Source: a virus. Taken from it: 47,301 bases of DNA. Position numbers and translations under genes: made by a program. Below, one piece after another: positions 416 to 42,723 of this stretch. The stretch is from IMG/VR virus record IMGVR_UViG_3300036799_000105, positions 1 to 47,301 of that record; one strand, given 5' to 3'. The notes beneath the pieces were generated by a model. The model had not been told where the DNA came from, did not search any database, and worked only from the letters and a program-made list of their open reading frames with translations. Within the stretch, counting starts at the first letter, position 1. Every line of letters begins with the position of its first letter.

Positions 416-2089
416 ATGCCTGACTGGGATACGTCCTGCCCGGACTGGGAGGAGCGGCTGCTCGCTGGCCGCTCGCTCGTGCCGGATCTGCCATTGTTCC
501 GCAAGGAGGCCGACAAGGCCCTGCGGGTGTTCAAGCGGCTACGGATCCCGGATGTCATTGGAACGCCGACCAACGGCGAGGCTGCGGGGCCCTGGCTGTT
601 CCCAATCGTCGAGGCAATCTTCGGTGCCTACGATGCGCCGGCCAATCGGCGAGCGATCCAGGAATGCTTCCTGCTCGTGCCGAAGAAGAACTGGAAGACC
701 GGCGCCTCGGCCTGCATCATGCTGACGGCGCTGATACTCAACCGGAGGCCCGAGGCTGAACTGACGCTGATCGCGCCGACCAAGGACGTGGCCGATCGAG
801 CGTTTGGGCATGTCCAGGGATCGATCCGGCTGGACGGCCAGCTCACCAAGCTGTTCCACCCACAGAACCACATCCGGACCATCACGCACCGGAACACGGG
901 CGCCAAGCTCCAGGTGAAGGCGGCGGACACGGACGTCGTCACCGGCATCCGCTCCGCCTACATGATGATCGACGAGACGCATGTTTTTGCCACCAAGTCG
1001 GCGGCCACTGGGATCTTCCTCGAGATCCGTGGCGCGCTCGCGGCCAGGCCTGACGGGTTCCTGATCCAGATCACCACGCAGTCGAAGAACCCGCCGGTCG
1101 GAGTGTTCAGGACCGAGTTGCACAATGCGCGCGATGTGCGGGACGGCAAGCTGCAGCTTCCGCTGCTGCCGATCCTCTACGAGCTGCCGCCACGGATCGC
1201 TGACGATGGTGCCTGGAAGGAGCGGCAATACTGGGGGCTGGTGAACCCGAACATCAACCGCTCGGTGGACGAGGCGTTCCTGGCGCGGGAACTGATGAAG
1301 GCCGAGCGCGAGGGCATCCAGGCGCTGGGGCTGTTTGCCAGCCAGCACTTCAACATCGAGATCGGCATCTCGCTGCGGACGGATCGCTGGCCGGGCGCTG
1401 AGTACTGGCAGAGCCGGGCGGACCCGTCGCTGACCTACGACGAGGTGTTGCTGCGGTCAGAGGTGATCGTGGTCGGGATCGACGGTGGCGGCCTCGACGA
1501 TCTGTTCGGGCTTGCCATCCTGGGACGGGACAAGGAGACCAAGGACTGGCTGCTGTGGACGCACGCCTGGTGCCACAGCGGTGTGCTCACCCGGCGCCGC
1601 TCGATCGCCCAGCATCTACGGGACTTCGAAGCTGACGGCGACCTGACGATCGTCGAGGACATCGCCACGGTCGAGCCTGAGATCGTCGCCATGGTTGCCG
1701 AGATCAAGCAGCAGGATTTACTCGGCGCGGTCGCGGCGGACAGCGAGGGGCCGTTCGGCGAGTTCGTCGACCTGCTCGACCAGATCGAGGTGACGCAGGA
1801 GAACAAGCTGCTGGTCGGCGTCAATCAGGGCATCCGCCTGATGCGCGCCATCAAGACCACGGAGCGGCGGCTGGCATCCGGCACGATGCGGCATAACGGC
1901 ACGCGGCTGATGGCTTGGTGTGTCGGCAACCTCAAGATCGAGGCGACGGCGACTGCGCTGCGGGCGACCAAGGCGAATGCTGGTGATGCGAAGATCGATC
2001 CGGCGATGGCGATGTTCGACGCGGTCGACATTCTGACGACCAACCCGGATCCGAAGTTGAAGCCGACGTATCAGCTATTCTTCGCGTAA
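416..2089 (+). CDS. terL: Terminase large subunit (Terminase_1 type)
   Basis: A 557-residue packaging motor. The ATPase half carries a variant Walker A, VPKKNWKTG (Lys94), and a Walker B MMIDETH (Asp186, Glu187). The nuclease half opens with VGIDGGGLDD around Asp356, the RNase H-like metal site. Length and order fit the HK97-like terminase group (PF03354). The enzyme pumps DNA into proheads and cuts the concatemer. The start has a GTAGGAAACC ribosome site. It is the second gene of the packaging operon and is followed by genes on the opposite strand, so head genes beyond 3319 need readthrough of that cassette or their own promoter. Confidence 0.95.
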   Translation: MPDWDTSCPDWEERLLAGRSLVPDLPLFRKEADKALRVFKRLRIPDVIGTPTNGEAAGPWLFPIVEAIFGAYDAPANRRAIQECFLLVPKKNWKTGASACIMLTALILNRRPEAELTLIAPTKDVADRAFGHVQGSIRLDGQLTKLFHPQNHIRTITHRNTGAKLQVKAADTDVVTGIRSAYMMIDETHVFATKSAATGIFLEIRGALAARPDGFLIQITTQSKNPPVGVFRTELHNARDVRDGKLQLPLLPILYELPPRIADDGAWKERQYWGLVNPNINRSVDEAFLARELMKAEREGIQALGLFASQHFNIEIGISLRTDRWPGAEYWQSRADPSLTYDEVLLRSEVIVVGIDGGGLDDLFGLAILGRDKETKDWLLWTHAWCHSGVLTRRRSIAQHLRDFEADGDLTIVEDIATVEPEIVAMVAEIKQQDLLGAVAADSEGPFGEFVDLLDQIEVTQENKLLVGVNQGIRLMRAIKTTERRLASGTMRHNGTRLMAWCVGNLKIEATATALRATKANAGDAKIDPAMAMFDAVDILTTNPDPKLKPTYQLFFA

Positions 2090-3318: not shown

Positions 3319-5268
3319 ATGGACGTGTCGACCCGCGCCTACAGTCTGCTCGAGATCAAGTCGGTCAACGAGGAGAGCCGTACCATCCGCGGGATGGCGA
3401 CGACGCCCAGCACGGATCGCCAGGGCGATATCATTGAGCCGCTCGGCGTGAAGTTCGCCAACCCGCTGCCGTTGCTGTGGCAGCACAAGAGCGACAAGCC
3501 TGTCGGGCTCGCCACGTTCGACAAGCCGAGCAAGGCCGGCATCGGTTTCTCGGCCTCGCTTGCGGCGATCAGCGAGCCTGGGACGCTGAAGGACCGCATT
3601 GACGAGGCATGGCAGTCGCTCAAGGCGGGCCTCGTGCGCGGCGTGTCCGTCGGCTTCAAGCCGATCGAGTATTCCTTCATCGACGGCGGCGGTGTGCGCT
3701 TCGTCGAGAGCGAGGTGTTGGAGCTGTCGCTGGTGACGATCCCGGCCAACGTGGACGCCACCATCACCTCCATCAAGAGCATCGATGCCGACCTGCGCGC
3801 CGCGAATGGCAAGCCGCAGGCAGCCGATCCACAGCCCGGCGCATCGGGAAAATCCAAACCGGTTCAAAGGGGAAAGAACATGAGTAAGCGGACGATCAAC
3901 GAACAGATCACTGCGTTCGAGGGGACGCGTCAGGCCAAGTCGGCACGCCTCTCCGAGATCCAGGATGGTGCGATGGAAGAAAATCGCACGAAGGACGAGG
4001 GCGAGCGCGAGGAATTCGAGACGCTGCAGCGCGACATCGAGGGCATCGATCTGGAGCTGGTTGATCTCCGCAAGATGGAGAAGATGAATGTGGCGGCTGC
4101 GCGGGCGGTCGAGAACGTCAAAGATCCCGACAGTGCCAGCCAGGCGCGGACTGGCGTTGTGGCCGCGACGGCGAAGGTGAAGCTGCCGCCTGGAATTCCG
4201 TTCACCAGATTTGCGATTTCGCTGATGGTTGCCAAGGGCAACTTGATGCAGGCCGAACGCATCGCGTCGGGCAATGAGCGCTGGCGCAACGAGACACCGG
4301 AGGTCGAGCTTACGCTGCGTGCCGCAGCCGCGGCTGGCACCACGACCGACCCGGCCTGGGCGGGCCCGCTGGTGGTGTATCAGAACCTCCAAAGCGAATT
4401 CGTCGAGTATCTGCGCCCGATGACTATCATTGGTCGCATTCCGGGGCTGCGGCGTGTGCCATTCAAGGTGAAGATCCCGCGGCAGACTGGCGCGGCTAGC
4501 GTTGGTTGGGTAGGCGAAGGCAAGGTCAAGCCGATCAGCGCGCTGGCATTCGATAGTATCACAATGGATATCAGCAAGATTGCTGGCATCATCGTGCTAA
4601 CGGATGAACTGGTGCGGCTCTCCAGCCCTGCAGCCGAGGGTCTGGTGCGTGACGAGCTGGCCAAGGCGATCGTTCAATACATGGACTCGCAGTTCGTCGA
4701 TCCGACGAAAGCCGCCACCGATGTCTCGCCGGCCTCGATCACTTACGGTGTGACGGCGATCCCCGCATCCGGCACCACCGGATCAGCGATGCGCGCCGAC
4801 ATTCGCAACCTGATGGCGACGTTCCTCGACAGCAACCTGCAATTGAGCAGCGCTGTCTGGATCATGACCCAGCAGACAGCGCTTGGGATCCACCTGATGA
4901 CGAACGCTCTCGGGCAGCCGGAATTTCCTGACATCACGATGGGTGGCGGCACGCTCCTCGGCCTGCCGGTTATTACCTCTGAGGGTGTGCCTCAATCCGG
5001 CGGCTCGCCGTCCGATGGGTTCCCGATCATCCTGGTAAATGCGAGCGATATCCTGCTCGCGGACGACGGCCAGGTTGTTATCGACGCGTCGCGTGAGGCC
5101 TCGCTGCAGATGGACACGACGCCTGACTCACCCGCCACCTCATCGACCATCATGATCTCGATGTGGCAGCAGAACATGATGGCGATCAAAGCCGAGCGCT
5201 ACATCAACTGGGCGAAGCGCCGGGCTGAATGTGTCGGCTACATCTCGGGCGCGAAATACGCCGAGTGA
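3319..5268 (+). CDS. Fused S78 prohead protease and HK97 major capsid protein
   Basis: One 649-residue frame. Residues 1-~170 are a prohead protease (S78/U35, PF04586): His56 in WQHKSDKPVG, Ser110 in RGVSVGF, and acidic residue near 135 in VLELSLVTIPAN. From about 188 there is a coiled-coil scaffold (delta-like) domain rich in Glu and Lys, then an HK97 capsid fold (PF05065) with VPFKVKIPRQTG, WVGEGKVKPIS and ITSEGVPQSGG. The ATG at 3319 has an AGAGAGAGG ribosome site; a TTG at 3277 would add 14 residues and is less likely. A strong in-frame internal start sits at 3880 (listed separately). The protease should cut itself and the scaffold from the capsid during maturation. Confidence 0.93.
   Translation: MDVSTRAYSLLEIKSVNEESRTIRGMATTPSTDRQGDIIEPLGVKFANPLPLLWQHKSDKPVGLATFDKPSKAGIGFSASLAAISEPGTLKDRIDEAWQSLKAGLVRGVSVGFKPIEYSFIDGGGVRFVESEVLELSLVTIPANVDATITSIKSIDADLRAANGKPQAADPQPGASGKSKPVQRGKNMSKRTINEQITAFEGTRQAKSARLSEIQDGAMEENRTKDEGEREEFETLQRDIEGIDLELVDLRKMEKMNVAAARAVENVKDPDSASQARTGVVAATAKVKLPPGIPFTRFAISLMVAKGNLMQAERIASGNERWRNETPEVELTLRAAAAAGTTTDPAWAGPLVVYQNLQSEFVEYLRPMTIIGRIPGLRRVPFKVKIPRQTGAASVGWVGEGKVKPISALAFDSITMDISKIAGIIVLTDELVRLSSPAAEGLVRDELAKAIVQYMDSQFVDPTKAATDVSPASITYGVTAIPASGTTGSAMRADIRNLMATFLDSNLQLSSAVWIMTQQTALGIHLMTNALGQPEFPDITMGGGTLLGLPVITSEGVPQSGGSPSDGFPIILVNASDILLADDGQVVIDASREASLQMDTTPDSPATSSTIMISMWQQNMMAIKAERYINWAKRRAECVGYISGAKYAE
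3866..3882 (+). promoter_or_regulatory. Internal ribosome site and start for capsid-only product
   Basis: AAAGGGGAAAG precedes an ATG at 3880 that is in frame with the long ORF (codon 188). Translation from here would yield scaffold plus capsid without the protease, 462 residues beginning MSKRTINEQI. The site falls exactly at the boundary between the protease and the scaffold domain, as if two genes fused while keeping the second ribosome site. Seen in sequence; use of the site is inference. Confidence 0.65.
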
Positions 5269-5756: not shown

Positions 5757-7187
5757 ATGACCGGCGGGCCACTGACCTGGGAGACCGAGGCAAAGTCGTA
5801 TTCCGGTATCTCCGACACCAGCCGCACGGGATATTCGTTCTATCCGCTGGTGCATGAGCCGTTCACCGGAGCATGGCAGCGTAATCTCGAGCTGCGGACC
5901 GAAAGCACTGCGACCTTCCACGCGGTCTATTCGTGCATCACGCTGATCGCGAGCGATGTCAGCAAGGTTCGCATTCGGCTGGTCGAGCAAGATGACGACG
6001 GCATTTGGTCGGAGACGTTCTCGCCTACCTTCAGCCCGGTTCTGGCGAAGCCCAACCGGTATCAGAACCGGATCAAGTTCTACGAGCAGTGGATCGTCAG
6101 CAAGCTCGTCCACGGCAACACGTATGTGCTGAAGGAGCGTGACGGCCGCGGCACTGGGCCGCTGCAGGGCGCGGTGCGCGCGTTGTATATCCTCGATCCG
6201 CTGCGCACGCGGGCGCTCGTGGCACCCGACGGCGAGGTGTTCTACCAATTGTCGCGAGACAATCTCGCCGGCATTACCGAGCCGCTCGACAACCTGATCG
6301 TGCCGGCGAGCGAGATAATTCACGACGTGATGGTGCCGCTGTATCACCCTCTGTGCGGCGTCTCGCCGTTGACGGCATGCGGCCTCGCCGCGGCGACCGG
6401 GCTCAACATCCAGCGCCAGTCCGCAGCATTCTTCGCGCAGCAATCGCAGCCAGGCGGCATTCTCATCGCTCCTGGCCGGATCAGTGAAGAAGATGCCAAA
6501 CGGCTGAAGGCGCACTGGGAGACGAACTACACAGGCGACAACGTCGGCCGCGTCGCCGTCGTGGGCGATGGGCTGAAATACGAGCCGATGTCGGTCAACG
6601 CCGTCGATGCGCAACTGATCGAGCAACTGAAGTGGAGTGCGGAGACGGTGTGCTCGTGCTTCCATGTTCCACCGCATAAGATATCGATCGGCCAGATGCC
6701 GAACTACAACAATGTCGAGGCGCTCGATCAGCAGTATTATTCGCAGTGCCTGCAAGCGTTGTTCGAAAATATCGAGATCTGCCTCGACGAGGGATTGGGC
6801 CTCACCGATCTCGTCGGCAAGACCTACGGCACCGAGTTCGACCTCGACGATCTGATGCGGATGGACACCGCGACCTTGATGAAAGCGCTCAGCGACGGCG
6901 TGCGTGGTGGGCTGCTGGCGCCGAACGAAGGCCGCAAGCGACTTGGCTACAAGCCGGTCGAGGGCGGCGACACGCCATATCTGCAGCATCAGGACTACGG
7001 TCTTGCCGCGCTCGCGAAGCGCGATGCGACCGACAATCCGTTCGCTGCGACCGGTCCAGCCCCGACACCGGTCCCAGCAACTCCGCCTCCAGCCGACGCT
7101 CAGCAGCGTGACCTCGATCTCGAGGCGCTCGCCATGGTCGCCGCGCTGGAGGCGAATACTCAACTGCGCCTGCTTTTCGCGGCGTAA
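5757..7187 (+). CDS. Portal protein (HK97 family)
   Basis: 476 residues matching the HK97-type portal (PF04860). Visible landmarks are FHAVYSCITLIASDVSKV near the N-terminus, the conserved NRIKFYEQWIVSKLVHGNTYV segment, PLYHPLCGVSPLTACGLAA, and HVPPHKISIGQMPNYNNVEALDQQYY. The portal ring is the DNA entry channel and the base of the head-tail connector. The C-terminus is Pro/Ala-rich. The start has a GAGGAGTGACGC ribosome site and lies three bases after the previous stop. Core structural gene. Confidence 0.95.
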   Translation: MTGGPLTWETEAKSYSGISDTSRTGYSFYPLVHEPFTGAWQRNLELRTESTATFHAVYSCITLIASDVSKVRIRLVEQDDDGIWSETFSPTFSPVLAKPNRYQNRIKFYEQWIVSKLVHGNTYVLKERDGRGTGPLQGAVRALYILDPLRTRALVAPDGEVFYQLSRDNLAGITEPLDNLIVPASEIIHDVMVPLYHPLCGVSPLTACGLAAATGLNIQRQSAAFFAQQSQPGGILIAPGRISEEDAKRLKAHWETNYTGDNVGRVAVVGDGLKYEPMSVNAVDAQLIEQLKWSAETVCSCFHVPPHKISIGQMPNYNNVEALDQQYYSQCLQALFENIEICLDEGLGLTDLVGKTYGTEFDLDDLMRMDTATLMKALSDGVRGGLLAPNEGRKRLGYKPVEGGDTPYLQHQDYGLAALAKRDATDNPFAATGPAPTPVPATPPPADAQQRDLDLEALAMVAALEANTQLRLLFAA

Positions 7188-7207: not shown

Positions 7208-8167
7208 ATGAACGCACTTGAGGTGCGAACCGTCGTACAGGCCCTCCTGTCGCCGCTGGAGAAAGCGATCGAGCGCGCGTCTGCGCCGCTGCTGGCCAGG
7301 ATCGAGGCGCTCGAGGCCCGTGCACTGATCGAAGGCCCGGCAGGACCGCCTGGGCGCGATGGTGAAGACGGCCGGGGCGTGGACACGGGTGAGGTGGTGC
7401 GTCTGGTGGAGGCGCAGGTCGAGCGAGCGATCGCCGCATTGCCGCCGGCGCTCCCAGGTGAGCCTGGGCCAGCGGGAGCTCCCGGCGTGGATGGACGTGA
7501 TGCGGATCCGGACCACGTCAAGCAGCTCGTTGCCGAGGCTGTGGCGGCGCTACCACCTGCGGCACCGGGGCAGATGGGCAAGGACGGGGCGCCAGGTCGC
7601 GACGGCGTCGACGCCGATCCTGAAGCCACCAGAGGCATGATCGAGAAGGCCGTTGCCGAGGCCGTGGCAGCACTGCCGCCGGCCGAGGCTGGCAAGGATG
7701 GCGCCCCCGGCCGCGATGGGCGTGACGGTGTGCCAGGGCCGGCGGGACGCGATGGTGCCGATGGCAAGGACGGCGCCGTCGGCAAAGACGGACGCGATGG
7801 CCTCAGCGCCGAGGACATGAGCGTCACAACGCCAGACGATGGACGGACGATCGTCGTCACCTTGGCGCGTAACGGCGAGGTGGTCAGCCAGAACGTCATC
7901 ACCACAGGTCTTCCGGCCGATCGTGGGGTTTGGAAGGACGGCGCGTATGCCAAGGGCGACGGTGTCTCGCTCGGCGGCGAATTCTGGATCGCCCGGCGCG
8001 ATACCAAGCTGCGCCCGGTCTATGGCCCGAATTCCGATTGGCGGCTCGCGGTGAAGAAAGGCCGCGACGGTCATGACGGCAAGGACGGCAAGCCGGGCGA
8101 GCCTGGGCCCGAAGGTAAGCCAGGACGGGATCTGACCCAGATCGGCCCCGATGGCCAGAAGTGGTGA
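7208..8167 (+). CDS. Collagen-like decoration or fibre protein
   Basis: 319 residues. An N-terminal amphipathic helix (residues ~1-40) precedes several Gly-X-Y blocks (for example GPAGPPGRDGEDG, GEPGPAGAPGVDGRDA, GKDGAPGRDGRDGVPGPAG), interrupted by short helices ending AALPP that recur three times. Near residues 235-280 is a compact module with GVWKDGAYAKGDGVSLGGEF and WIARRDT, a pattern like small carbohydrate-binding or fibre-tip domains, then more Gly-X-Y. Probably a trimeric collagen-like surface fibre. It overlaps the next gene by 17 bases, joining it to the sugar-transfer cassette. Collagen-like proteins of large viruses can be glycosylated; that this one is glycosylated is inference. 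Confidence 0.8.
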   Translation: MNALEVRTVVQALLSPLEKAIERASAPLLARIEALEARALIEGPAGPPGRDGEDGRGVDTGEVVRLVEAQVERAIAALPPALPGEPGPAGAPGVDGRDADPDHVKQLVAEAVAALPPAAPGQMGKDGAPGRDGVDADPEATRGMIEKAVAEAVAALPPAEAGKDGAPGRDGRDGVPGPAGRDGADGKDGAVGKDGRDGLSAEDMSVTTPDDGRTIVVTLARNGEVVSQNVITTGLPADRGVWKDGAYAKGDGVSLGGEFWIARRDTKLRPVYGPNSDWRLAVKKGRDGHDGKDGKPGEPGPEGKPGRDLTQIGPDGQKW

Positions 8168-8795
8168 ACCTGCTTGGTTCCTCGACTGGAGCAACGAGGC
8201 CTGCGCGATCGTCGCCTCCGGTCCCTCGGCCAAGCGGGTGAGCATCGGTGCACTGCGCGGCAAGCTGCGGGTGATCGCGATCAAGGAGTGTGTGGAGCTC
8301 TGCCCGTGGGCGGATGTGGTCTACGGCTGCGACGCGGCGTGGTGGCGGAACGCCCTCGGGCTGCCAAAGTTCACCGGACTGAAGGTCTCGGCCACGCCGC
8401 GGATAACGACCCGGTTTCCCGACATCGAGATCCTCAAGATACCGGACCCATCGTCGGACAGATTGGCGCTGACGACCCCTGGCTCTGTTGGTTCCGGCGG
8501 GAATAGCGGTTTCCAGGCGCTGAACCTCGCCGTGCAGTTCGGAGCGCGCCGCGTGCTGCTGATCGGCTTCGACATGACCGACCGGTATGGCGTGCACTGG
8601 TATGGCAGGGCGAACGGCAACGGACGCAGCAATCCTGCCGAGTGGAACTTCAAGCGCTGGCGGGCTGGCTTCGACACCGCCTCCGTCCAACTGAAGACGG
8701 CCGGCGTTCAGGTGCTCAACGCGTCGGATCTGTCGGCGCTGACGTGCTTTCCCAAGGTCACGCTCGAACAGGTGCTGCACGAATGGCAGATATGA
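8151..8795 (+). CDS. MptE/DUF115-like Rossmann-type protein
   Basis: 214 residues. It opens with a nucleotide-binding-like ACAIVASGPSAKRV segment, followed by ADVVYGCDAAWW, GSGGNSGFQALNLAVQFGA and RRVLLIGFDMT...HWYGRANG. I know this pattern from a phage-encoded family related to DUF115/MptE-like proteins, which is linked to sugar or nonulosonate transfer in flagellin and capsule loci. The catalytic chemistry of the phage members is not established. The ATG lies inside the end of the collagen-like gene (17-base overlap) and the stop overlaps the next start (ATGA). First enzyme-like gene of the surface-modification cassette. Confidence 0.72.
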   Translation: MARSGEPAWFLDWSNEACAIVASGPSAKRVSIGALRGKLRVIAIKECVELCPWADVVYGCDAAWWRNALGLPKFTGLKVSATPRITTRFPDIEILKIPDPSSDRLALTTPGSVGSGGNSGFQALNLAVQFGARRVLLIGFDMTDRYGVHWYGRANGNGRSNPAEWNFKRWRAGFDTASVQLKTAGVQVLNASDLSALTCFPKVTLEQVLHEWQI

Positions 8796-9520
8796 ACCGC
8801 AGCATCTACATCGGCTTCGATCCGCGTGAGGCCGCGGCCTATGCCGTGGCGCGCTGGTCGACGAAGCGGCGACTGACGCAGCCGCTTGCCATCCGCGGCG
8901 TGGTGCTGGCGAAGCTAGTCGCGAATGGACTCTACCGACGTCCGATCGAATTGCGCGAAGGCCCGACCGAAAAGCGCATCATGTGGGACGTGATCTCGAA
9001 TGCGCCGATGAGCACCGAGCACGCCAATGCGCGCTTCCTGATGCCGCATCTGGCGAAAACCGGTTGGGCGCTGTTCATGGACGGCGACGTTCTGGTGCGC
9101 GGCAATGTCGCCCGTCTGTTCGATGGCCTCGATCCGGCGATGGCTGTGTATTGCGTGAAGCACAAGCACATGCCACCGGCCGGGGTGAAGATGGACGGTC
9201 AGGCGCAGACGCAATACGTGCGCAAGAACTGGTCGTCCGTCATGGTGTGGAACTGCGATCACCCGGCCAACCGCGCGCTGACCCTCGACGCGGTCAACAC
9301 GATGGCCGGGCGGGATCTGCACCGGTTCGTCTGGCTCGAGGACGAAGAGATCGGCGAGCTCGATCCCAAGTGGAATTGGCTGGTGCGGCAGAGCCCGGTG
9401 CTCGAGCTTAACGCGCCGCAGATCGTCCATTACACCGAAGGCACGCCTGACATGCCGGGCTACGAGGATGATCCCTACACGGACGAATGGCGGCAGGAAC
9501 TTGCGTGCTGGGCGGATTAA
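8792..9520 (+). CDS. Glycosyltransferase-like protein (GT8-like)
   Basis: 242 residues starting MNRSIYIGFDPREAAAY, which is typical of GT-A-fold enzymes that read nucleotide sugars. A DxD-type motif is present: FMDGDVLVRG with Asp97 and Asp99, expected to bind metal and the sugar nucleotide. Later WSSVMVWNCDH, LDPKWNWLVRQ and IVHYTEGTPDMPGYEDDPYT resemble the acceptor and His-containing end of GT8-like enzymes. The start overlaps the previous stop by four bases (ATGA). The donor sugar cannot be told from sequence. Likely acts in the cytoplasm on a virion protein or host surface precursor. Confidence 0.78.
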   Translation: MNRSIYIGFDPREAAAYAVARWSTKRRLTQPLAIRGVVLAKLVANGLYRRPIELREGPTEKRIMWDVISNAPMSTEHANARFLMPHLAKTGWALFMDGDVLVRGNVARLFDGLDPAMAVYCVKHKHMPPAGVKMDGQAQTQYVRKNWSSVMVWNCDHPANRALTLDAVNTMAGRDLHRFVWLEDEEIGELDPKWNWLVRQSPVLELNAPQIVHYTEGTPDMPGYEDDPYTDEWRQELACWAD

Positions 9521-10306
9521 GTGGGGCTCGGTGACCAACTAATCGGAACTGGTCTCGCGCGTGGTGCTGCGGCGCGGAGCAAGAAGATCGCTTTCGGCGA
9601 TGGCAAGCAGATCCTGTGGGACGCCAACAGCCGGGTGATCTTCGCTGGCAACCCGAACATTGCCCCGCCGAAGTCGACGTTTGTGAACTCGCCTTTTAGC
9701 CTGGAGTGGGTGCCGTTCTACAAAGGCAGCCGTCTCTACAATCGCCAGGCGACGGGTCGCTGGGAGTGGAACTACGACTTCCGGTGCATACCGGGTGAGA
9801 TCTTCCTGACGAAGGAGGAGACGCACTACGCCAAGCTTGCTGGCGACGGGTTCGTGCTGATCGAGCCCAATCCGTCAAAGAAGTCGCCAGTCGCGAACAA
9901 GCAGTGGCCGTTCGAGAGGTTCGAGGCTATCGCGGCAAAGCTGAAGGCCGACGGCTACGACGTGCTGCAACTGCATTACCCCGGCGTGCGGCGGCTCAAG
10001 GCGGCGCGGCCGTTCGGGTGCCCCAGCTTTCGCATCGCTCTGGCGGTCATGGCGCGCGCGCAGCTCTACATCGGTGGCGAGGGCGGGCTGCATCACGGCG
10101 CGGCTGCGGTGGGCGTAGGAGGCGTCGTGCTGTTCGGAGGCTTCATTCCTCCCCAGGTCACCGGCTACGCCCTGCACACCAATCTGACGGGCGGCGCAGA
10201 GGCCTGTGGCTCGCTCAATCCCTGCACACACTGTCATGCCGCCATGCAGGCGATCGGCGTGGACGAGGTGCTCGAGCATGCCAGGGCGCGGCTATGCCGA
10301 GCGTGA
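9521..10306 (+). CDS. Glycosyltransferase-like protein (GT9/GT-B-like)
   Basis: 261 residues with a GTG start directly abutting the previous TAA. It begins with a GLGDQLIGTGLARG loop, as in heptosyltransferase-like GT-B enzymes (GT9). A C-terminal half with FVLIEPNPSKKSP, RAQLYIGGEGGLHHGAAAVG and VVLFGGFIPPQVTGY matches the GT9 donor-binding region. A CNPCTHCH-like cluster (NPCTHCHAAM) near the end may bind metal. Probable transfer of a heptose or other sugar; substrate unknown. It overlaps the next gene by 13 bases. Confidence 0.78.
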   Translation: MGLGDQLIGTGLARGAAARSKKIAFGDGKQILWDANSRVIFAGNPNIAPPKSTFVNSPFSLEWVPFYKGSRLYNRQATGRWEWNYDFRCIPGEIFLTKEETHYAKLAGDGFVLIEPNPSKKSPVANKQWPFERFEAIAAKLKADGYDVLQLHYPGVRRLKAARPFGCPSFRIALAVMARAQLYIGGEGGLHHGAAAVGVGGVVLFGGFIPPQVTGYALHTNLTGGAEACGSLNPCTHCHAAMQAIGVDEVLEHARARLCRA

Positions 10307-10863
10307 CGACTGAGACCACGCTGCAGCGCCGCGTTGCCGGGTACCACGACATCCGGCTCGACGGCATGCTGGATCTCGTGATTCGAGCCCATGGTGCCTC
10401 GGTGATGGATGTCGGGTGCAACCGAGGCCTCGTTGGGTTCGAGATGGCGAACAACGGCGCCCGACTGGTGCACGGCTGCGATAACTACGCCGAGGGCATC
10501 GCAACCGCCCGGCAACTGTTCGCCGATCTGCGCAACTGCGAGACCCGGTTCGAGGTCGTGGATTTGACCGAGGGAGGCCCGGCGCTGAAGGTGTTCGGCG
10601 ACGTGCGCTATGACATCGTGCTGATGCTCGCCGTCTATCACAAGCTGAAGCGGATCATGGATCCGAAGAACCTCGATTGGCTCATGGGTGTTCTTGGTGA
10701 TCGCACCAACAAGTGGTTCGGCTGGCGCGCGACGTCCGACAAGCCGGCGGAGAATGACGCTGAGATGAAAACGCTGGACCGGCAGTTGGCACCGCTGAAG
10801 CGCATCCATACGAGCTACATCTCAAAGACGCTCGGCGTTGCAGCGATCTGGGAGCGGCCGTGA
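10294..10863 (+). CDS. SAM-dependent methyltransferase
   Basis: 189 residues. Motif I is VMDVGCNRGLVGFEMA (Asp39-Gly41), an acidic motif II follows in VHGCDNYAEG, and DIVLMLAVYHKL forms the motif IV region of class I methyltransferases. The substrate is not evident; a cassette neighbour suggests O- or N-methylation of a glycan or virion protein. It starts 13 bases inside the preceding gene and ends in a GTGA overlap with the next, a second methyltransferase. The pair may act on one substrate or be specialised. Confidence 0.82.
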   Translation: MPSVTTETTLQRRVAGYHDIRLDGMLDLVIRAHGASVMDVGCNRGLVGFEMANNGARLVHGCDNYAEGIATARQLFADLRNCETRFEVVDLTEGGPALKVFGDVRYDIVLMLAVYHKLKRIMDPKNLDWLMGVLGDRTNKWFGWRATSDKPAENDAEMKTLDRQLAPLKRIHTSYISKTLGVAAIWERP

Positions 10864-11420
10864 AGGCATTGCAGCATCCGGCGGAACTCCAGCGCTTCGT
10901 CGGGCTTGTGGCCCGCGAGGGCGTGCGCAGCTACCTCGAGATCGGCTGCAAGTTTGGCGGGACGTTCTCCGCGGTGACGCGGGCAATGCCGCCTGGATCA
11001 AGGGCCGTCTCGGTCGACCTGCCGGCCGGGAACAAGCACTGGGCGCAAAGTCGCATTGCGCTCACGGCCTGCGTCGCGGAACTGAAGAGGCTCGGTTACG
11101 ACACGCACCTGATCTGGGGCGACAGCACGGACGACACGGTGGTCAGCCAGGTTTCGGCGCTCGGACCGTTCGATCTGATCCTGATCGACGGCGGTCACAC
11201 GCTGCCGTTCGTGCGTGCCGACTGGATGCATTACGGCCCCATGGGCCGCATCGTGGCGTTCCATGACATCGCGTGGTCGCGGTCGCCAGATTGGACCGGC
11301 TACCAGATCGACGTCCCGCTGTTCTGGACCAACATCAGGGAGAGCTACCGTCACGAGGAGATCAAGCTAGATCCCACCGGTCAGGACAACGGGTTGGGGA
11401 TCCTCTGGGTGCGGGACTGA
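10860..11420 (+). CDS. Class I SAM methyltransferase (Methyltransf_24-like)
   Basis: 186 residues from a GTG overlapping the upstream stop. Motif I is YLEIGCKFGGTFSA (Tyr25 on). VSVDLPAG is the ribose-binding acidic strand. DLILIDGGHTLPFVRADW (Asp110, His113) is the hallmark of the Methyltransf_24 group often found beside glycosyltransferases. The C-terminal half retains MGRIVAFHDIAW. Such enzymes methylate sugars in LPS and rhamnan loci, so glycan methylation is a reasonable guess. Ends two bases before the next gene. Confidence 0.82.
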   Translation: MKALQHPAELQRFVGLVAREGVRSYLEIGCKFGGTFSAVTRAMPPGSRAVSVDLPAGNKHWAQSRIALTACVAELKRLGYDTHLIWGDSTDDTVVSQVSALGPFDLILIDGGHTLPFVRADWMHYGPMGRIVAFHDIAWSRSPDWTGYQIDVPLFWTNIRESYRHEEIKLDPTGQDNGLGILWVRD

Positions 11421-11422
11421 GC

Positions 11423-12079
11423 ATGCTCCACGTCTGCTGCTGGCACTGGGGCCACAAGTATGGCGCCGAATATGTCGACCGACTGCGGGCGGGCGTGAGG
11501 CGTCATCTCAAGCAACCCTACCGCTGGTCGGTCTTTCATCCAGAGCGGGGGGACGAGCGTCTCGTTTTCGCATCAGGCTGCTTCCCTCGACTCAGGATGT
11601 TTGATCTGGACTGGCAGGCGCGCCAGGGTATTGGATCGGGTGAGCGCTTGGTCTGCCTCGACCTCGACAGTGTCGTGACCGGCCCCCTCGATCCGCTGTT
11701 CAACCGACCCGAGCCGTTCCTCATCCTGCAAGGGGCTAATGCCTCGAACCCGTGTCCCTTCAACGGATCGGTGATGATGCTTCGCGGCGGTTATCGCTCG
11801 GATGTCTGGTCCGATTTCTCGCTCGAGGCCGCAGCCGCCATCCCGTATTATCAGTTCCCCGACGATCAGGGCTGGCTCGCCCACAAGATACCGGATGCGG
11901 CGGGCTGGAATGTCGGTGCAGAGAGCGGCGTTTACGCGTTCCAGAAGCCCGGGTGGCCGAGTAGAGGCACGGCGCTCCCGGCTGATGCGAGGCTGGTGGT
12001 GTTTCCTGGTTATCGGGATCCGAGCCTGTTCACCAAGCTGCCATGGGTGCAGCAGCATTGGGCCGCGGAGTGTCCATAG
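11423..12079 (+). CDS. Second GT-A-like glycosyltransferase
   Basis: 218 residues. It begins MLHVCCWHWGHKYGAEYV with GVRRHL, then carries LVCLDLDSVVTGPLDPLF, in which Asp80 and Asp82 are the DxD-type metal site. CPFNGSVMMLRGG and FPDDQGWLAHKIP follow as in GT8-like or glycogenin-like enzymes. Not closely similar to the 8792 gene outside these blocks, so likely a different acceptor or sugar. The ATG lies two bases after the preceding stop. Confidence 0.78.
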   Translation: MLHVCCWHWGHKYGAEYVDRLRAGVRRHLKQPYRWSVFHPERGDERLVFASGCFPRLRMFDLDWQARQGIGSGERLVCLDLDSVVTGPLDPLFNRPEPFLILQGANASNPCPFNGSVMMLRGGYRSDVWSDFSLEAAAAIPYYQFPDDQGWLAHKIPDAAGWNVGAESGVYAFQKPGWPSRGTALPADARLVVFPGYRDPSLFTKLPWVQQHWAAECP

Positions 12080-12870
12080 ATCCTCGGACTGTGATTCTCT
12101 ACAGCCCCCCGGGTCTTCGTGCATTCAAGCAGGATTTGTTTGACCGCATCGGAGCCAGCATCAAAAAGCTGGGCGGCCGCTATACCCGCCAAGACCTCGA
12201 GCCGTTGAAGAGCCTGTCGGATGACAGCGTCCCGATTGTCGGCTGCATGCCGGAATGCACTGAACTGATCGCTGGCTGGCGGAGCAGTGGTCGCCCTTGG
12301 GTGTACTTCGATAGGGGCTACGCGAGAAGAGTGTTTGCAACCTGGCTGCCGCGTGGTGAACAGGGTGGGTTCTACAGATGGCACAGGGATAGCTACCAAC
12401 TGACAGCCATCCGCGACGTCCCAGGCGACCGCTGGGAGGCTTTAAAGATCGAGGTCCGGCCTTGGCAGCGGAGTGGCCGGCACATCGTCATAGCTGCTCC
12501 GACGCGCACCTACGCGCGGTTCCACAGATGCGAGGGGTGGATCGCCGATACGATCGACGCGCTCGCCAGGGTGACGGACCGCCAGCTCGTGATCCGCGAC
12601 AAGGAGACAAAGCGGCCGCTGCAGGCTGACCTAGATGGCGCGCATGCACTCGTGACGCACGCCTCGATCGCCGCGGTCGAGGCTGTCATCCTTGGATGCC
12701 CGGTGTTCGTGCATCCTGACAGCGCGGCCGCTCTTGTTGGACGGACTGACCTGAAGATGATCGAGCGCCCACTGATGCCGGATCGCACGAAGTGGTTACA
12801 CTCGCTAGCCTATAACCAGTTCAACGAGAAAGAGCTGGTTGATGGCACCCTGTGGAGGCTGGTGGCCTGA
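12070..12870 (+). CDS. Glycosyltransferase-like protein (polysaccharide-type)
   Basis: 266 residues if the GTG at 12070 is used (10-base overlap with the previous gene); an ATG at 12043 would add nine residues and a longer overlap. The central region HIVIAAPTRTYARFH and the C-terminal THASIAAVEAVILGCPVFV resemble the donor-binding half of GT-B enzymes, in which S-x2-A-x-E-A and G-x-P-V recur. Weakly recognisable; function inferred from fold-like pattern and neighbours. Last sugar-transfer gene before the head-tail connector, whose start is one base inside this stop (TGATG). Confidence 0.62.
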   Translation: MSIDPRTVILYSPPGLRAFKQDLFDRIGASIKKLGGRYTRQDLEPLKSLSDDSVPIVGCMPECTELIAGWRSSGRPWVYFDRGYARRVFATWLPRGEQGGFYRWHRDSYQLTAIRDVPGDRWEALKIEVRPWQRSGRHIVIAAPTRTYARFHRCEGWIADTIDALARVTDRQLVIRDKETKRPLQADLDGAHALVTHASIAAVEAVILGCPVFVHPDSAAALVGRTDLKMIERPLMPDRTKWLHSLAYNQFNEKELVDGTLWRLVA

Positions 12871-13568
12871 TGGACAGCATCCTGACAGTCGTCGATCGGG
12901 CCAGCAGCTACGACCTGGTCGACCTCGAGACCGTGAAGGACGAACTGCACATCACCGGTACCGCGAGCGACGCCAAGCTGCAGCGCTGGATCAGCGCGAC
13001 GTCGGTGCGCTTCGCTAATATCTGCGGTGTCGTGTTTCCAGAGGAAAATGTCTCCGAAGTGTTTCGCCTGCTTGGTTCGCATCACGGCTACTACTCCACC
13101 TTCCACAGCTTCCACGGTTATCACGGCTACGGCCACGGTATTGGCGGAGGACCATACGGCTTGCCTATCAAGCTTCGCCGCCGTCCCGTGACGTTCATCA
13201 GCGGTGTCCTGGATGGCACCAGCACTCTGACGATCGATGACTACGAGACAAACCTTGCGGGTGGCCTGATCTATCGGCTCATCGGCGATTGCCGCGGCAG
13301 TTGGTGCGGGACGGGCGTCACCGTCCAGTACACCGCCGGCTACTATCCGATCCCTCCCGACGTGACTGACGCTGTGATGACGATCCTGCGGCACAAGTGG
13401 GCGGCATCCTCGCGCGATCCGCTGCTGCGTCGCTTCCAGATCGAAAACGTCGGCTCCGAGGACTACTGGGTGCCGCTGTCGCAGCAGAGCCTCTATGAAG
13501 CACTGCCACCCGATCTGCAGCCGGTTGCAGATACCATCGCCTACTACCGGGATCATGTGATCGCTTGA
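12870..13568 (+). CDS. Head-tail connector (gp6-like)
   Basis: 232 residues. The N-terminal part (VDLETVKDELHITGTASDAKLQRWISAT) and the middle PPDVTDAVMTILRHKWAASSRDP match the gp6/gp15-like connector family (PF05135), which forms the ring below the portal. Between them, residues ~70-95 form an unusual His/Tyr/Gly-rich insert (HHGYYSTFHSFHGYHGYGHG). The ATG at 12870 overlaps the previous stop and has GGAGG 13 bases upstream. A core head-completion gene, lying between the glycosyltransferase genes and the radical SAM gene. Confidence 0.82.
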   Translation: MDSILTVVDRASSYDLVDLETVKDELHITGTASDAKLQRWISATSVRFANICGVVFPEENVSEVFRLLGSHHGYYSTFHSFHGYHGYGHGIGGGPYGLPIKLRRRPVTFISGVLDGTSTLTIDDYETNLAGGLIYRLIGDCRGSWCGTGVTVQYTAGYYPIPPDVTDAVMTILRHKWAASSRDPLLRRFQIENVGSEDYWVPLSQQSLYEALPPDLQPVADTIAYYRDHVIA

Positions 13569-14455
13569 ACAGCACTGGCAAATGGTCGAACGGCCTCGCC
13601 GAATGGACTGAGGGGGATACTGCGTTCCTCTCGATAGCCTTCACCTGGAGGCTGGATGACGCCTACATGCGTGCGATCTGGTACCGCGCGCAGGGCTACA
13701 AGGTGCTGGCTGGCGGGCCCGGTGTGTTCACCCGCAAGCACTACCTCGCGGAGGTCGCTGAACTCGGCGGCGACGTTCCCGAAGCCATCGTGCATCACAA
13801 CCCGATGGCGACCATGGCGAGCCGAGGATGTCCTGTCGGATGCTGGTTCTGCATCGTGCCGAAAATGGAGGGGAAGCACTTCACTCTGCTGCCTGACTTT
13901 CCGGTGCGGCCGGTGCTCTGCGACAACAACCTGTCGGCGCTACCGCCCGAATTCCAAGACCACATCGTCAGCCGATATAAGGTGACCGGCGTGCCACTGC
14001 TGGATGCGCAAAGCGGGTTTGAGCCGGCGACGTTCACTGAGGATGTGTTCATGCGCTGGAGCGAGATCTATCGCGGGCCATGGCGCTTTGCATTCGACGA
14101 AGCCAGGGATCGTCCTGACGTAAAGCGAGTGATGGCGATGCTACGTCACGTCAGTCCACGCCGGAAGCAAGTCTACACATTGATCGGCAATGAGCCGTTC
14201 GATGCCTGCATGGAACGCATCGCGGAGGTAATCGCCTGGGGCGGCGAGCCTTATGCGCAGCCGTTCATCAAGCTGAATGCGTTGGAGAAGCGTCCGCATG
14301 TGCGGTTCGACTGGAGCGAGCGCAAGCTGAAACAGGTTCAACGCTGGGTAAACGGGCGGTTCTGGCGATACACGCCCTTCGCTGGTTACGACGCATCGGC
14401 CAAAACCGCGAACCAGTCTGACGTGCGCCAAGTCAGCATGATCGAGATTGCTTGA
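13565..14455 (+). CDS. Radical SAM enzyme
   Basis: 296 residues. The cluster motif is C-x3-C-x2-C at Cys89, Cys93 and Cys96 (ASRGCPVGCWFCIVPKMEG). Before it lies a region that could bind cobalamin or merely resemble such a domain (YRAQGYKVLAGGPGVFTRKH). After it, RPVLCDNNLSALPPEF and DAQSGFEPATF look like the TIM-barrel strands. Reaction unknown. A TTG at 13565 overlapping the connector stop (TTGA) gives the full N-terminus; internal ATGs would cut it off. A radical SAM gene amid neck genes is unusual and suggests modification of a virion protein, glycan or host target. Confidence 0.85.
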   Translation: MNSTGKWSNGLAEWTEGDTAFLSIAFTWRLDDAYMRAIWYRAQGYKVLAGGPGVFTRKHYLAEVAELGGDVPEAIVHHNPMATMASRGCPVGCWFCIVPKMEGKHFTLLPDFPVRPVLCDNNLSALPPEFQDHIVSRYKVTGVPLLDAQSGFEPATFTEDVFMRWSEIYRGPWRFAFDEARDRPDVKRVMAMLRHVSPRRKQVYTLIGNEPFDACMERIAEVIAWGGEPYAQPFIKLNALEKRPHVRFDWSERKLKQVQRWVNGRFWRYTPFAGYDASAKTANQSDVRQVSMIEIA

Positions 14456-24082: not shown

Positions 24083-24505
24083 ATGGTAGCGCGCGAAACA
24101 ATCGTCGCCGAGGCGCGGTCCTGGGGCGGCGTGCGCTGGGTTCATCAGGGGCGCAGCAGACACGGCATAGACTGCATCGGGCTCGTGGTGGTGGTGCGCT
24201 CGGGGCTTGGCATCGGCGACTACGACATAGCTGGCTATCCACGGGCTCCGGACGGGACATTCATGTCGCACTTCTTCAACGCAGGCGGCGTGCGGGTTGA
24301 AATCCTCAAGGCAAAGCCAGCAGACCTGTTGCTCTTCAAGGATGCAAAGTCACCCTGTCATGTCGGCATTGTCACCGCGCGCAACGGCGAGCTGATGCAT
24401 ATGGTTCACGCGCACGCGACCCGTCATAAGGTGCTCGAAGAGCCGGTCATCAATGAGTGGCAGCAGAAGTGGGTGGCCGCGATACAGATGCCGGGCGTTG
24501 ACTGA
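24083..24505 (+). CDS. NlpC/P60-family cell-wall peptidase (GTA gp14-like)
   Basis: 140 residues. Catalytic Cys31 in SRHGIDCIGLV and His93 in SPCHVGIVT; a polar third residue is expected nearby. Enzymes of this family cut peptide bonds of peptidoglycan. The third gene of the conserved tip block, so it probably acts in the virion at entry rather than as a free endolysin. The ATG at 24083 is preferred over an upstream TTG (24077) because of a GAGAG ribosome site. Overlaps the hub gene by one base. Confidence 0.87.
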   Translation: MVARETIVAEARSWGGVRWVHQGRSRHGIDCIGLVVVVRSGLGIGDYDIAGYPRAPDGTFMSHFFNAGGVRVEILKAKPADLLLFKDAKSPCHVGIVTARNGELMHMVHAHATRHKVLEEPVINEWQQKWVAAIQMPGVD

Positions 24506-27500
24506 TGGCGGTCCTTGCGGTCGCTGGCATCGGTGCGGTTGCCGGTCTGGGCATCGGTGCGGCTGCTGGCCTGACGACGTTTGCCGCTCTCGCGACTGCC
24601 GCCTCGATCGGCTTCTCGGTCGGCACGCTGGTTGGCCAGCAACTGTTCCCCGAGCAGGTCAAGCAGGAAGGCTCGCGGCTCACCGATCTCACGGTAACGA
24701 GTTCAGCGTTCGGTGCGGTGAGACCGATCGTGTATGGCCAGGTGCGTATCGCCGGGAACATCATCTGGTCGACACCGATCCGCGAGCAGAAGAACACGCA
24801 GAAACACGGCAAAGGCGGCAGCGGCCCGTCGGTCACCAACACGACCTATACCTACTTCGGATCATTCGCGATCGCTTTGTGTGAGGGGCCGATCGATGCA
24901 GTATTGCGCATCTGGGCCGACAGCAAGCTCATCTACGACAGCACCGGCCCGCAGCTCATCCAGCAGAAAGGCGTGAACTTCCGGTTCTATCCTGGTGACG
25001 AAGAACAACTGGCGGACAGCATCATCCAGGCGGACAAGGGCGTGGAGAACGTGCCGGCGTATCGGGGCACTTGCTACATCGTGTTCGATAACTTGCCACT
25101 CGCCGACTACGGCAATCGGCTCCCGAACATCACCTGTGAGGTGGTCGAGAGGCGTACCCCGGCGTTTCCCTATCAAACCTGGACGGAATTCGATCCAACT
25201 ATCGTCGGGGGCGACGCCGGCGCCCAAGGCACACCAATGGGCGTCGATTGGGATCGCAATCTCCTTTATTTTCAGGGGTCCGATCCATTCACGCTTATTG
25301 TTGCTGATGCGGTGACGCTGCGCACGATCCGCGAAGTGCCCATGACGGAGGTTCTTTCCGACGGTACAGATGGTGGTTACTCGATCAAAGCCTACGGTCC
25401 GAACATTTTCGTCGGACCGGACGGTGCACTTTACTTCGAGTCATCACCTGGGATCATACGGGTTGATCAGAACACACTGAAGCAAACCGCGGTGTTCCAT
25501 CTTACCGGCGCTTTCAATTTTCCGCAGTTCCTCGCGAGTATCAGCACTTTTACCCCCGAAGGTGCGCGGAAAGACTATCTGGTCGAGTTCGGCTTCTTTT
25601 CTGACTGGCGCGTGCTGTCCATGCCGGATCTCGTCCTGCAAGCCAGCGGCGTGAATGCTGACAGCGCTGAAGGATTAGGAGGTACTACCGGCAAGTGGGG
25701 GGTGGGATTTGGCGAGGCATGGGGACTATGGGGTCCGGGTGCTCTGGGCGGCCCTCATCTTTTTATCACTCGCGTGCGGCTGGATGGCTTGACCTTCACC
25801 AACACGACGATGGCGACATTCACCGTGGATCAGTTCGATCCTGCCGCGCTTATCTTCCTCGGTGCTGACAGGAAGTTCCTGGTCTACGACCAAACAGACG
25901 ATAGCCTGATAATCAATTTCACGACGGCTCATGATATTGCGCATGGCTTCACGGCATGGGTCGTGAAATGGTCCGCGGCAAGCGGCATCGTCTGGAAGAC
26001 AGACCTCACCGCTGCTGGTGTTTCTAACGCGCAAGGAGGTCCATCCGCCGAAGTCAACGGTCAGAGCCGTCTCACACAAGGCACATTTGCGTGGTTTACC
26101 GTCGGTGGGCTTGTCCAGATCAGCACTGCGACGGGAGCGGTATTGATTAACCAGACCGCTGCTCCGGCGTCCGGTGGCTGGCCGATCGGCTTGTTGAACA
26201 GCATCCAGGTCTACGACAGCGAAACACAGATTGTCGCTGGCGGTTTCAACGAAAACCTGGCTGGCGTGTCGGTGCCAGGCAGCATCGCAAAGGCCTTTAT
26301 TGCCCGCAGGACGGGACTGGCCACGACACTCGGCGAGATCGTCTCTGATCAATGCCAGCGTGCTGGCTTTGAGGCCGCCGACTTCGATGTCTCCACGTTG
26401 ACCGACGTGATCGAAGGCTACGTCGTCAGTCAACGCGCGACCGTGACGGACGTGCTGACGCCTCTGCTCGGCGCCTTTATCGTCGATGCGGTCGAAACCG
26501 ACTACACGCTGCGGTTCAAGCATCGCGCAGGAGCGACTGTTGCCAGCATCGTGCAGGATGATCTGATTCGCACCGACCAGCAGTCAGCCGAGCCCTACGT
26601 CGAGACACGGCAGCAGGAGATCGAGCTGCCCATGCGTCTCACGATTACCTATATCGACAAAGACCGCGATTATCAGATGAACACCGCAGCGGTGAAACGT
26701 ATCCGCAATCCCGACCCGACGGTGTTCTCCGACAATCAAGTGGATGTCCAGCTTGCTGCCGTTATGACGTCCACGCCGGGAAAGAAAATGGCGGAAATGC
26801 TGCTTTATACCGCCTGGAATGAACGCCACACCTTTGCCGCGCGTCTCTCGCCGGCATTCGATTATCTGGACGCGGCTGACGCTGTGCAGCTTACCCTGAA
26901 CGACGGCTATACCGCGCGCGTGCGCCTGGGCAACATCAGCCTGGGCGTCGACTATTCGATAGAGACCAAGCTGATCGGCGAGACGGACGGGCAATATGTG
27001 TCGCTCGCCGAGGCCGATCCCGGTGTTCCGTGGTTCGGCTCCCACTTCATCACCGCAGCGGGCAAGTCGGAGCTCATCCTGCTCGACACGCCGTTGCTGC
27101 GTGATATCGATGATTTGGCTGGCCGCGCCATCCGCGGCTACTGGGGCGGCGGTCCGTTCTCCCGCGCAGCGGCATGGCCTGGAGCCGTGCTGCAGGAGGC
27201 GGACCCTAGCAGCAGTCTCTGGACAACCCTCTCATCGATCACCGATGAGGCTACCTGGGGATACGTAGAGGCGGCGCCTGCTGATTGGCCCCCGGTGTTC
27301 GCGACCCAGGATGAACTGCATGGTGGCGTCATGACCGTCGGGATCATCGGCGGCGGCGGCTTCCTGCCGTCATCGGTGACAGACGTCGATCTGGCGAACT
27401 TTGCCAACCCCATCGCCCTGATCAAGTCGAACGGCCAAGTGGAGATCATCCAATATCGCGACGCTGCGGCATTGGCCAACGGACGCTGGCAACTCTCTAC

Positions 27501-28143
27501 GCTGCGGCGCGGCCAGCGTGGCACCGATACGATGGCCTTTGGTCACACCAACGGCGAGACCTTCGTGTTCCTCGATGAGAGCCTGATCGATCTGCTGCAG
27601 ATCCCACTCGCACAGCACAACATCAGCGAGTTCTATCGTCTGGTGACGATCGGCATGATCCCGGACGACGCCAACATCGAGGCGTTCGCTTTCCACGGCC
27701 GCGACATGATGCCGTATGCGCCGGTCAACGCCGAGCGCGCTCAAGTTGGCAGCGACGTGGTGCTGACCTGGATCCGCCGCACGCGGATCGGTGGCATGAT
27801 GGTGGACGGCACGGACACCGTGCCCCTCAACGAGGCCACAGAGGCCTACGAGGTCTATCTGCTGGCAAGCGCGGCGGATGCCGAGGACTTCGATCCGACG
27901 GTCCCGGCGACCTATTTGCGGGCCTTCCTGGCCCTGTCATCTGCAACCCTGACCTACACTGCCGCGCAGATGGTCACCGATGGGTTCGATCCGGCGACCG
28001 ATACGATCTACGCGGTGATCTACCAACTGTCGGCCGTCGTTGGACGTGGCTTCTCAACGCTGCACGTCCTGCCATCGCTGGGTGGTCTGACGCTCGGCCT
28101 CGAGGACGGGTCAGGCAGTTGGGCCGGTTGGCTGTGGGGGTAA
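24505..28143 (+). CDS. Tail hub/receptor-binding protein (GTA gp15-like) with propeller-like insertion
   Basis: 1212 residues. The N-terminus is a Gly/Ala-rich hydrophobic segment followed by SRLTDLTVTSSAFGAVRPIV and YGQVRIAGNIIWSTP, typical of the tail-hub family (Phage-tail_3, PF13550). Around residues 225-600 lies a stretch with repeating WDRNLLYFQG, NIFVGPDGALYFE and KFLVYDQTDD-like blocks that looks like a beta-propeller insert. After it, hub sequence resumes (TTLGEIVSDQCQRAGFE, QQEIELPMRLTITYI). The C-terminus has fibronectin-like stretches. It would form the tip cone and bind the host. The insert could be the specificity module. Confidence 0.85.
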   Translation: MAVLAVAGIGAVAGLGIGAAAGLTTFAALATAASIGFSVGTLVGQQLFPEQVKQEGSRLTDLTVTSSAFGAVRPIVYGQVRIAGNIIWSTPIREQKNTQKHGKGGSGPSVTNTTYTYFGSFAIALCEGPIDAVLRIWADSKLIYDSTGPQLIQQKGVNFRFYPGDEEQLADSIIQADKGVENVPAYRGTCYIVFDNLPLADYGNRLPNITCEVVERRTPAFPYQTWTEFDPTIVGGDAGAQGTPMGVDWDRNLLYFQGSDPFTLIVADAVTLRTIREVPMTEVLSDGTDGGYSIKAYGPNIFVGPDGALYFESSPGIIRVDQNTLKQTAVFHLTGAFNFPQFLASISTFTPEGARKDYLVEFGFFSDWRVLSMPDLVLQASGVNADSAEGLGGTTGKWGVGFGEAWGLWGPGALGGPHLFITRVRLDGLTFTNTTMATFTVDQFDPAALIFLGADRKFLVYDQTDDSLIINFTTAHDIAHGFTAWVVKWSAASGIVWKTDLTAAGVSNAQGGPSAEVNGQSRLTQGTFAWFTVGGLVQISTATGAVLINQTAAPASGGWPIGLLNSIQVYDSETQIVAGGFNENLAGVSVPGSIAKAFIARRTGLATTLGEIVSDQCQRAGFEAADFDVSTLTDVIEGYVVSQRATVTDVLTPLLGAFIVDAVETDYTLRFKHRAGATVASIVQDDLIRTDQQSAEPYVETRQQEIELPMRLTITYIDKDRDYQMNTAAVKRIRNPDPTVFSDNQVDVQLAAVMTSTPGKKMAEMLLYTAWNERHTFAARLSPAFDYLDAADAVQLTLNDGYTARVRLGNISLGVDYSIETKLIGETDGQYVSLAEADPGVPWFGSHFITAAGKSELILLDTPLLRDIDDLAGRAIRGYWGGGPFSRAAAWPGAVLQEADPSSSLWTTLSSITDEATWGYVEAAPADWPPVFATQDELHGGVMTVGIIGGGGFLPSSVTDVDLANFANPIALIKSNGQVEIIQYRDAAALANGRWQLSTLRRGQRGTDTMAFGHTNGETFVFLDESLIDLLQIPLAQHNISEFYRLVTIGMIPDDANIEAFAFHGRDMMPYAPVNAERAQVGSDVVLTWIRRTRIGGMMVDGTDTVPLNEATEAYEVYLLASAADAEDFDPTVPATYLRAFLALSSATLTYTAAQMVTDGFDPATDTIYAVIYQLSAVVGRGFSTLHVLPSLGGLTLGLEDGSGSWAGWLWG

Positions 28144-42701: not shown

Positions 42702-42708
42702 CAGCGTG

Positions 42709-42723
42709 TTGCCCTTTAGGCAA
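42709..42723. promoter_or_regulatory. Operator copy 2
   Basis: TTGCCCTTTAGGCAA. It abuts the repressor promoter's -10 (its last base, 42723, is shared) and extends over the expected transcript start. Autoregulation is expected. Confidence 0.75.

Follow-up and report, generated by a model that had tools for sequence, protein, structure and literature searches.

Chloroviruses and giant viruses encode the assembly of their own capsid or fibril glycans, including methylation of the sugars. Among the viruses of bacteria, mycobacteriophages encode glycosylation of their virions, on capsids as well as tails (Freeman et al., 2023, as cited in passages of PMC11652166 and PMC12619734). In phage P1, the genes pmgO, pmgP and pmgQ are nonessential (PMC10695390). 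The central Maf_flag10 domain (PF01973) of Maf has been likened to Cst-II, and a Maf enzyme can put 3-deoxy-D-manno-octulosonic acid (Kdo) on Ser/Thr residues of flagellin (PMC11339370). Here we analyzed a 47.3-kb virus DNA, IMG/VR record IMGVR_UViG_3300036799_000105 (47,301 nucleotides; this whole stretch is called the window). Its late operon carries seven contiguous enzyme genes, for a DUF115 protein, four glycosyltransferases (GTs; GT8, GT9, GTb and GTc) and two S-adenosylmethionine (SAM) methyltransferases (MT1 and MT2), which probably form a late-expressed cassette for the glycosylation of a virion protein. As in recognized virion glycosylation systems, the GTs are phage-encoded and linked to structural genes.

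Seven coupled enzyme genes in the late head operon

The late operon runs from TerL through a protease-capsid fusion, the portal gene and a collagen-like gene to the seven enzyme genes (8151-12870), followed by a head-tail adaptor gene and a radical SAM gene (Table 1). Adjacent enzyme genes are translationally coupled, with overlaps of a few bases or near abutment. The collagen-like gene overlaps the DUF115 gene by 17 bases, and the same 17-base overlap is present in two relatives, L002 and L004. The original prediction, made from the letters of the window, had proposed a dedicated glycan cassette of at least eight coupled enzyme-like genes in this late head operon. All of its open reading frame (ORF) coordinates were confirmed, the 17-base overlap included, and the seven contiguous coupled genes bear out the cassette; the eighth gene, radical SAM, is set apart by the adaptor gene, which lies within the interval and had gone unnamed. 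Prediction gave no transmembrane segment in any of the seven enzymes, which are thus predicted to be cytosolic.

DUF115, GT8 and the radical SAM protein fall below the curated Pfam cutoffs in this single sequence and are backed by PHROG, motif or fold. DUF115 scored 18.2 bits against MptE-like/Maf_flag10 (PF01973; cutoff 34.6) and matched phrog_4603 strongly. The best solved match of its AlphaFold2 (AF2) model was CstII (Foldseek E-value 7.6e-5, probability 1.00, TMq 0.59), a GT42 sialyltransferase-like fold. The structure-based search, suggested earlier for each enzyme, was run on DUF115 and GTc and returned sugar-transferase folds at a modest level of similarity. For GTc, the best PDB fold matches were KpsC (6mgc, E-value 4.5e-6, TM-score about 0.4-0.5) and WbbB. 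By PDB sequence search, no related chain was found for GTc, and nothing convincing for DUF115, GT8, GTb or the radical SAM protein.

GT8 reached 20 bits against the Pfam GT8 cutoff of 24.3, and the motif residues of that family, D97 and D99 (DxD) and a C-terminal H213, are invariant in the alignment. GTb gave no Pfam hit; its D80-L81-D82 is likewise invariant. GT9 exceeded its Pfam gathering score, and its profile matched heptosyltransferase II (1psw, 8e-7). MT1 passed the cutoff for Methyltransf_25 (28.6 bits vs. 27) and its profile matched WbdD (4ax8, 1.2e-9), while MT2 passed that for Methyltransf_24 (33.5 bits vs. 26.3) and its profile matched solved O-methyltransferases (2e-5).

In the glycosylation pathway that we favor, DUF115 would begin the glycan on Ser/Thr of a virion protein, and the sugar that it attaches may be Kdo or a different ulosonic acid, drawn from a cytidine monophosphate (CMP) donor. 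GT8, GT9, GTb and GTc would lengthen the glycan with CMP-Kdo, adenosine diphosphate (ADP)-heptose and uridine diphosphate (UDP)-sugars of the host, and MT1 and MT2 would cap it by O-methylation. All three donor types are precursors of lipopolysaccharide (LPS), and therefore the host could supply all of them. The CstII-like DUF115, the KpsC/WbbB-like GTc, the heptosyltransferase-type GT9 and the WbdD-like MT1 together suggest a methylated glycan resembling the LPS core and built from host donors.

Table 1. Late-operon features of the window from TerL to the radical SAM gene
Feature	Position	Strand	Evidence and remarks
TerL	416-2089		Late operon
Prohead protease fused to major capsid protein	3319-5268	+	Pfam Peptidase_S78 and Phage_capsid; context, candidate acceptor
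Portal protein	5757-7187	+	Pfam Phage_portal 4.6e-83; context
Collagen-like post-portal protein	7208-8167	+	Pfam Collagen 51.8 bits, cutoff 27.2
DUF115/sialyltransferase-fold protein	8151-8795	+	phrog_4603 3e-40; AF2 pLDDT 96.6; best PDB match CstII
GT8-like glycosyltransferase	8792-9520	+	Pfam GT8 5.6e-4 (below cutoff); DxD residues 97-99
GT9 glycosyltransferase, heptosyltransferase-like	9521-10306	+	Pfam GT9 30 bits, cutoff 22
SAM methyltransferase MT1, WbdD-like	10294-10863	+	Start 10294 ATG or 10303 GTG; Pfam Methyltransf_25
SAM O-methyltransferase MT2	10860-11420	+	Pfam Methyltransf_24
GTb, probable GT-A glycosyltransferase, DLD motif	11423-12079	+	phrog_1962 glycosyltransferase 4e-8
GTc, KpsC/WbbB-like fold (beta-Kdo transferase type)	12070-12870	+	AF2 pLDDT 89.9; KpsC 6mgc
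Head-tail adaptor gene	12870-13568	+	phrog_442 3e-20; end of enzyme run, between enzymes and radical SAM gene
Radical SAM protein, judged outside cassette	13565-14455	+	CX3CX2C motif; phrog_9298 2e-12

Elsewhere in the window, a tail protein (24505-28143) carries Phage-tail_3 and Rcc01698_C domains. We take the latter to be named after a Rhodobacter capsulatus protein, which would suggest a tail tip like that of gene transfer agents. A Cro/C1-type helix-turn-helix protein (42294-42752, minus strand) is consistent with a temperate phage.

Conservation and variation of the cassette

A scan of IMG/VR with the single DUF115 protein gave 175 relatives, of which 80 were kept, and an alignment scan gave 299. 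The gene lists of these relatives are approximate (plus-strand gene calling) and were read from the stretches around the matches, to which all absences below refer. Five or more of the seven families were present in 56 loci; 31 of these have the exact order DUF115-GT8-GT9-MT1-MT2-GTb-GTc, and the portal gene stands before DUF115 in 33 and after it in 11. The seven enzymes of L002 are 75-95% identical to those of the window. Each of the seven is under purifying selection (ratio of nonsynonymous to synonymous divergence, dN/dS, of 0.11-0.25 against two relatives, similar to the adjoining adaptor gene), and the catalytic motifs are invariant across the enzyme alignments. Synonymous divergence (dS) from L002 is lower in MT2 and GTb (0.32-0.39) than in the remaining genes (0.52-1.10), a pattern suggestive of exchange or recombination inside the cassette (10860-12079).

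Two head lineages have the cassette placed among their head genes. In the second, L025 has the order TerL-portal-protease-capsid-DUF115-GT8-GT9-GTc-MT-MT1-adaptor. P1, PAJU2, TVS20 and CcrColossus also have relatives, which lie in late or morphogenetic regions. Genomes of Bradyrhizobium, Phenylobacterium and Mesorhizobium contain prophages or prophage-like contigs that carry all or most of the cassette genes, and therefore the usual hosts are probably Alphaproteobacteria. GTc-GT9-GT8 homologs in that order were seen in six loci binned as Verrucomicrobia or Akkermansia (L104, L110, L116, L117, L118 and L120). A Mesorhizobium chromosomal GT8 (L085:9992-10705), ∼60% identical to that of the window, lies beside GT4, GT2, sulfotransferase, aminotransferase and polysaccharide deacetylase genes, a setting that suggests exchange with host polysaccharide loci.

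A portal scan, which did not select on the cassette, returned 44 loci extending 5 kb or more beyond the portal gene. DUF115 was present in 39 of them, whichever GT set comes after it. The genes following it differ: FkbM and other methyltransferases, GT-D, GT8-like and TOD1/MUCI70-type GTs, a sulfotransferase and an NAD-dependent epimerase. Judged by gene content, DUF115 is thus almost always retained, and the set behind it is variable, as in O-antigen loci. Two loci, L199 and L207, have DUF115 and no recognized member of the other six families, a provisional pattern that would fit DUF115 working directly on protein. More tentatively, many phages may have a locus of O-antigen type that serves their own particles, in which the constant DUF115 (sialyltransferase/Maf fold, host CMP-Kdo) would initiate and exchangeable GTs, methyltransferases, sulfotransferases and epimerases would set the type of glycan; we regard this broader view as possible rather than probable.

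The radical SAM protein has an intact CX3CX2C motif (RGCPVGCWFC in the translation) and scored 17.5 bits against the Pfam cutoff of 29.5. The gene was found in none of the 80 DUF115 relatives kept, L002 included. Only one of its own 19 relatives (L240) has the downstream genes of the window, and annotated neighbors in L241, L243, L249 and L255 include terminase, portal, helicase, RecE/RecT and ATPase genes. Its membership in the cassette, as originally predicted, was rejected: it lies past the adaptor gene, the closest relatives lack it, and its homologs in other phages stand beside replication, recombination or packaging genes. In L222 (12599-15025, plus strand), a SPASM-type radical SAM gene, apparently interrupted by an intein (Pfam Radical_SAM, Intein_splicing and SPASM), lies shortly after portal and Gly-X-Y genes.

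The acceptor and the alternative explanations

Several points weigh against a virion-protein glycosylation cassette. Glycan, donor and acceptor are deduced here from genes and models. The fold matches of DUF115 and GTc are modest (TM-score about 0.4-0.6), and the likeness to CstII and KpsC is one of overall fold. Methanocaldococcus jannaschii HPPK (E-value 0.01) and thiamine pyrophosphokinase are also weak fold matches of DUF115. The other small ORFs of L199 and L207 are just partly annotated, so that DUF115 standing alone there is provisional. The CcrColossus cassette follows a tail protein gene and has tail and lysis genes, rather than head genes, as its neighbors. In DUF115-bearing phages the capsid domain has a slightly higher share of Ser+Thr (0.170 vs. 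0.142, p = 0.004), a difference resting on six cassette-free, non-independent sequences.

The main alternative, which we consider unlikely, is that the enzymes remodel the LPS core of the host at its cytoplasmic face late in infection, keeping released progeny from binding to debris or superinfecting. Inner-core LPS assembly is cytosolic, and the GT9 heptosyltransferase, GT8, the KpsC/WbbB-type GTc and the WbdD-like methyltransferase are of the kinds that assemble LPS or O-antigen; the GT8 homolog in Mesorhizobium polysaccharide-type loci points the same way. However, the cassette is coupled into the head operon rather than placed in an early or lysogeny position, it brings no membrane protein, flippase or polymerase, and DUF115 resembles the domain of a protein O-glycosyltransferase.

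The original prediction had named the collagen-like fiber as perhaps the acceptor. That this fiber is specifically the acceptor, glycosylated for stability or display, we find quite unlikely. In many relatives DUF115 comes immediately after the collagen-like gene, the overlap is kept in the window, L002 and L004, and glycosylated collagen repeats are known in Bacillus anthracis BclA (cited in a passage of PMC3368898). In the co-occurrence survey proposed earlier, 37 of the 44 portal-selected loci have both genes, three have Gly-X-Y only, two DUF115 only and two neither, and with both near universal the association was not significant (Fisher p = 0.057). The cassette occurs without collagen repeats in the second head lineage (L020, L025, L070 and others), and the collagen-like protein occurs without DUF115 in L181, L190, L206 and the cultured RHph_X2_26. 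In 11 loci the cassette lies upstream of the portal gene, apart from the collagen gene. PAJU2 has DUF115 and a methyltransferase with a repeat-less homolog of the post-portal protein, and the non-collagen part of the protein remains a candidate. Gly-X-Y stretches average 2.8% Ser+Thr; over whole proteins of the window the values are 5.6% for the collagen-like protein and 14.9% for the protease-capsid fusion. Low Ser/Thr and separability from the cassette weaken the collagen helix as a required acceptor, and the collagen-like gene, often linked to the cassette yet separable, is probably not an essential part of it. We infer that the acceptor is a virion protein, the capsid protein being a more likely one than the collagen helix. 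The collagen-like protein also matches phrog_1289, labeled 'portal protein'; the label probably misnames a family of post-portal proteins, because in PAJU2, RHph_X2_26 and PPompW_132418 the homologs come after the actual portal gene.

It is very improbable that DUF115 is a pyrophosphokinase (MptE/HPPK-like) of cofactor metabolism within a mixed set of metabolic genes. The weak MptE-like Pfam score and the HPPK fold match would fit, but sialyltransferases are the better fold match, and DUF115 is steadily linked to glycosyl- and methyltransferases, with no other pterin gene seen. Decoration of hypermodified phage DNA by the GTs is hardly credible: a radical SAM gene is close by and DNA is a frequent target of phage GTs (literature cited in a passage of PMC12619734), but the genes are late, the enzymes resemble those working on polysaccharide or protein, and of the window proteins scanned with Pfam or PHROGs (some small ORFs lie outside the scan) none was recognized as a hydroxymethylase, a thymidylate-synthase-like or a TET/JBP-type protein. 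A virion protein rather than DNA is the likeliest substrate of these late, predicted cytosolic enzymes, as had been proposed.

Relation to described systems

If virion-protein glycosylation is correct, phages of Gram-negative bacteria coat their particles in host-derived, LPS-like, methylated sugars from a locus that varies like O-antigen loci, and the widespread, so far unassigned phage family phrog_4603/DUF115, including P1 pmgO, gains a function. Phage-encoded virion glycosylation is already known; what appears to be new is the DUF115-led, methylating, LPS-core-like cassette in a head operon, of which we found no description in the literature searched (no paper on DUF115 with phage glycosyltransferases, or on collagen-like, portal and glycosyltransferase together).

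At the level of single enzymes, DUF115 is a distant domain and fold relative of the Maf flagellin glycosyltransferases (PF01973), which move ulosonic acids including Kdo onto Ser/Thr (PMC11339370). Unlike Maf, it is a lone 214-residue domain, without the Maf flanking domains and under the Pfam cutoff. GTc has the retaining beta-Kdo transferases KpsC and WbbB as its top fold match; unlike them it is a single domain without sequence match, the likeness being one of fold. MT1 matches the methyltransferase domain of WbdD, the O-antigen chain-terminating methyltransferase, and unlike WbdD has no kinase domain.

As whole systems, chloroviruses and giant viruses also encode sugar-methylating glycan assembly, but their hosts are eukaryotic. 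Mycobacteriophages share the phage-encoded GTs, with glycans on capsid or tail protein in the passages cited above; unlike theirs, the cassette of the window has seven enzymes, including two methyltransferases and DUF115, in a head operon of phages with Gram-negative hosts, and is known here from its genes. In phage P1, the morphogenetic region holds pmgO-pmgP-ppp-pmgQ, with DUF115-family proteins and a glycosyltransferase, a set that differs in being smaller and including a phosphatase. In Caulobacter phage CcrColossus, a single operon (gp126-gp131) encodes DUF115, two GTc-like proteins, GT8, a methyltransferase and GT9; it differs in its place between tail and lysis genes, its low identity and its largely hypothetical annotation. 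CcrColossus gp126-gp131 and P1 pmgO are cultured relatives of the cassette, in which a direct test is possible.

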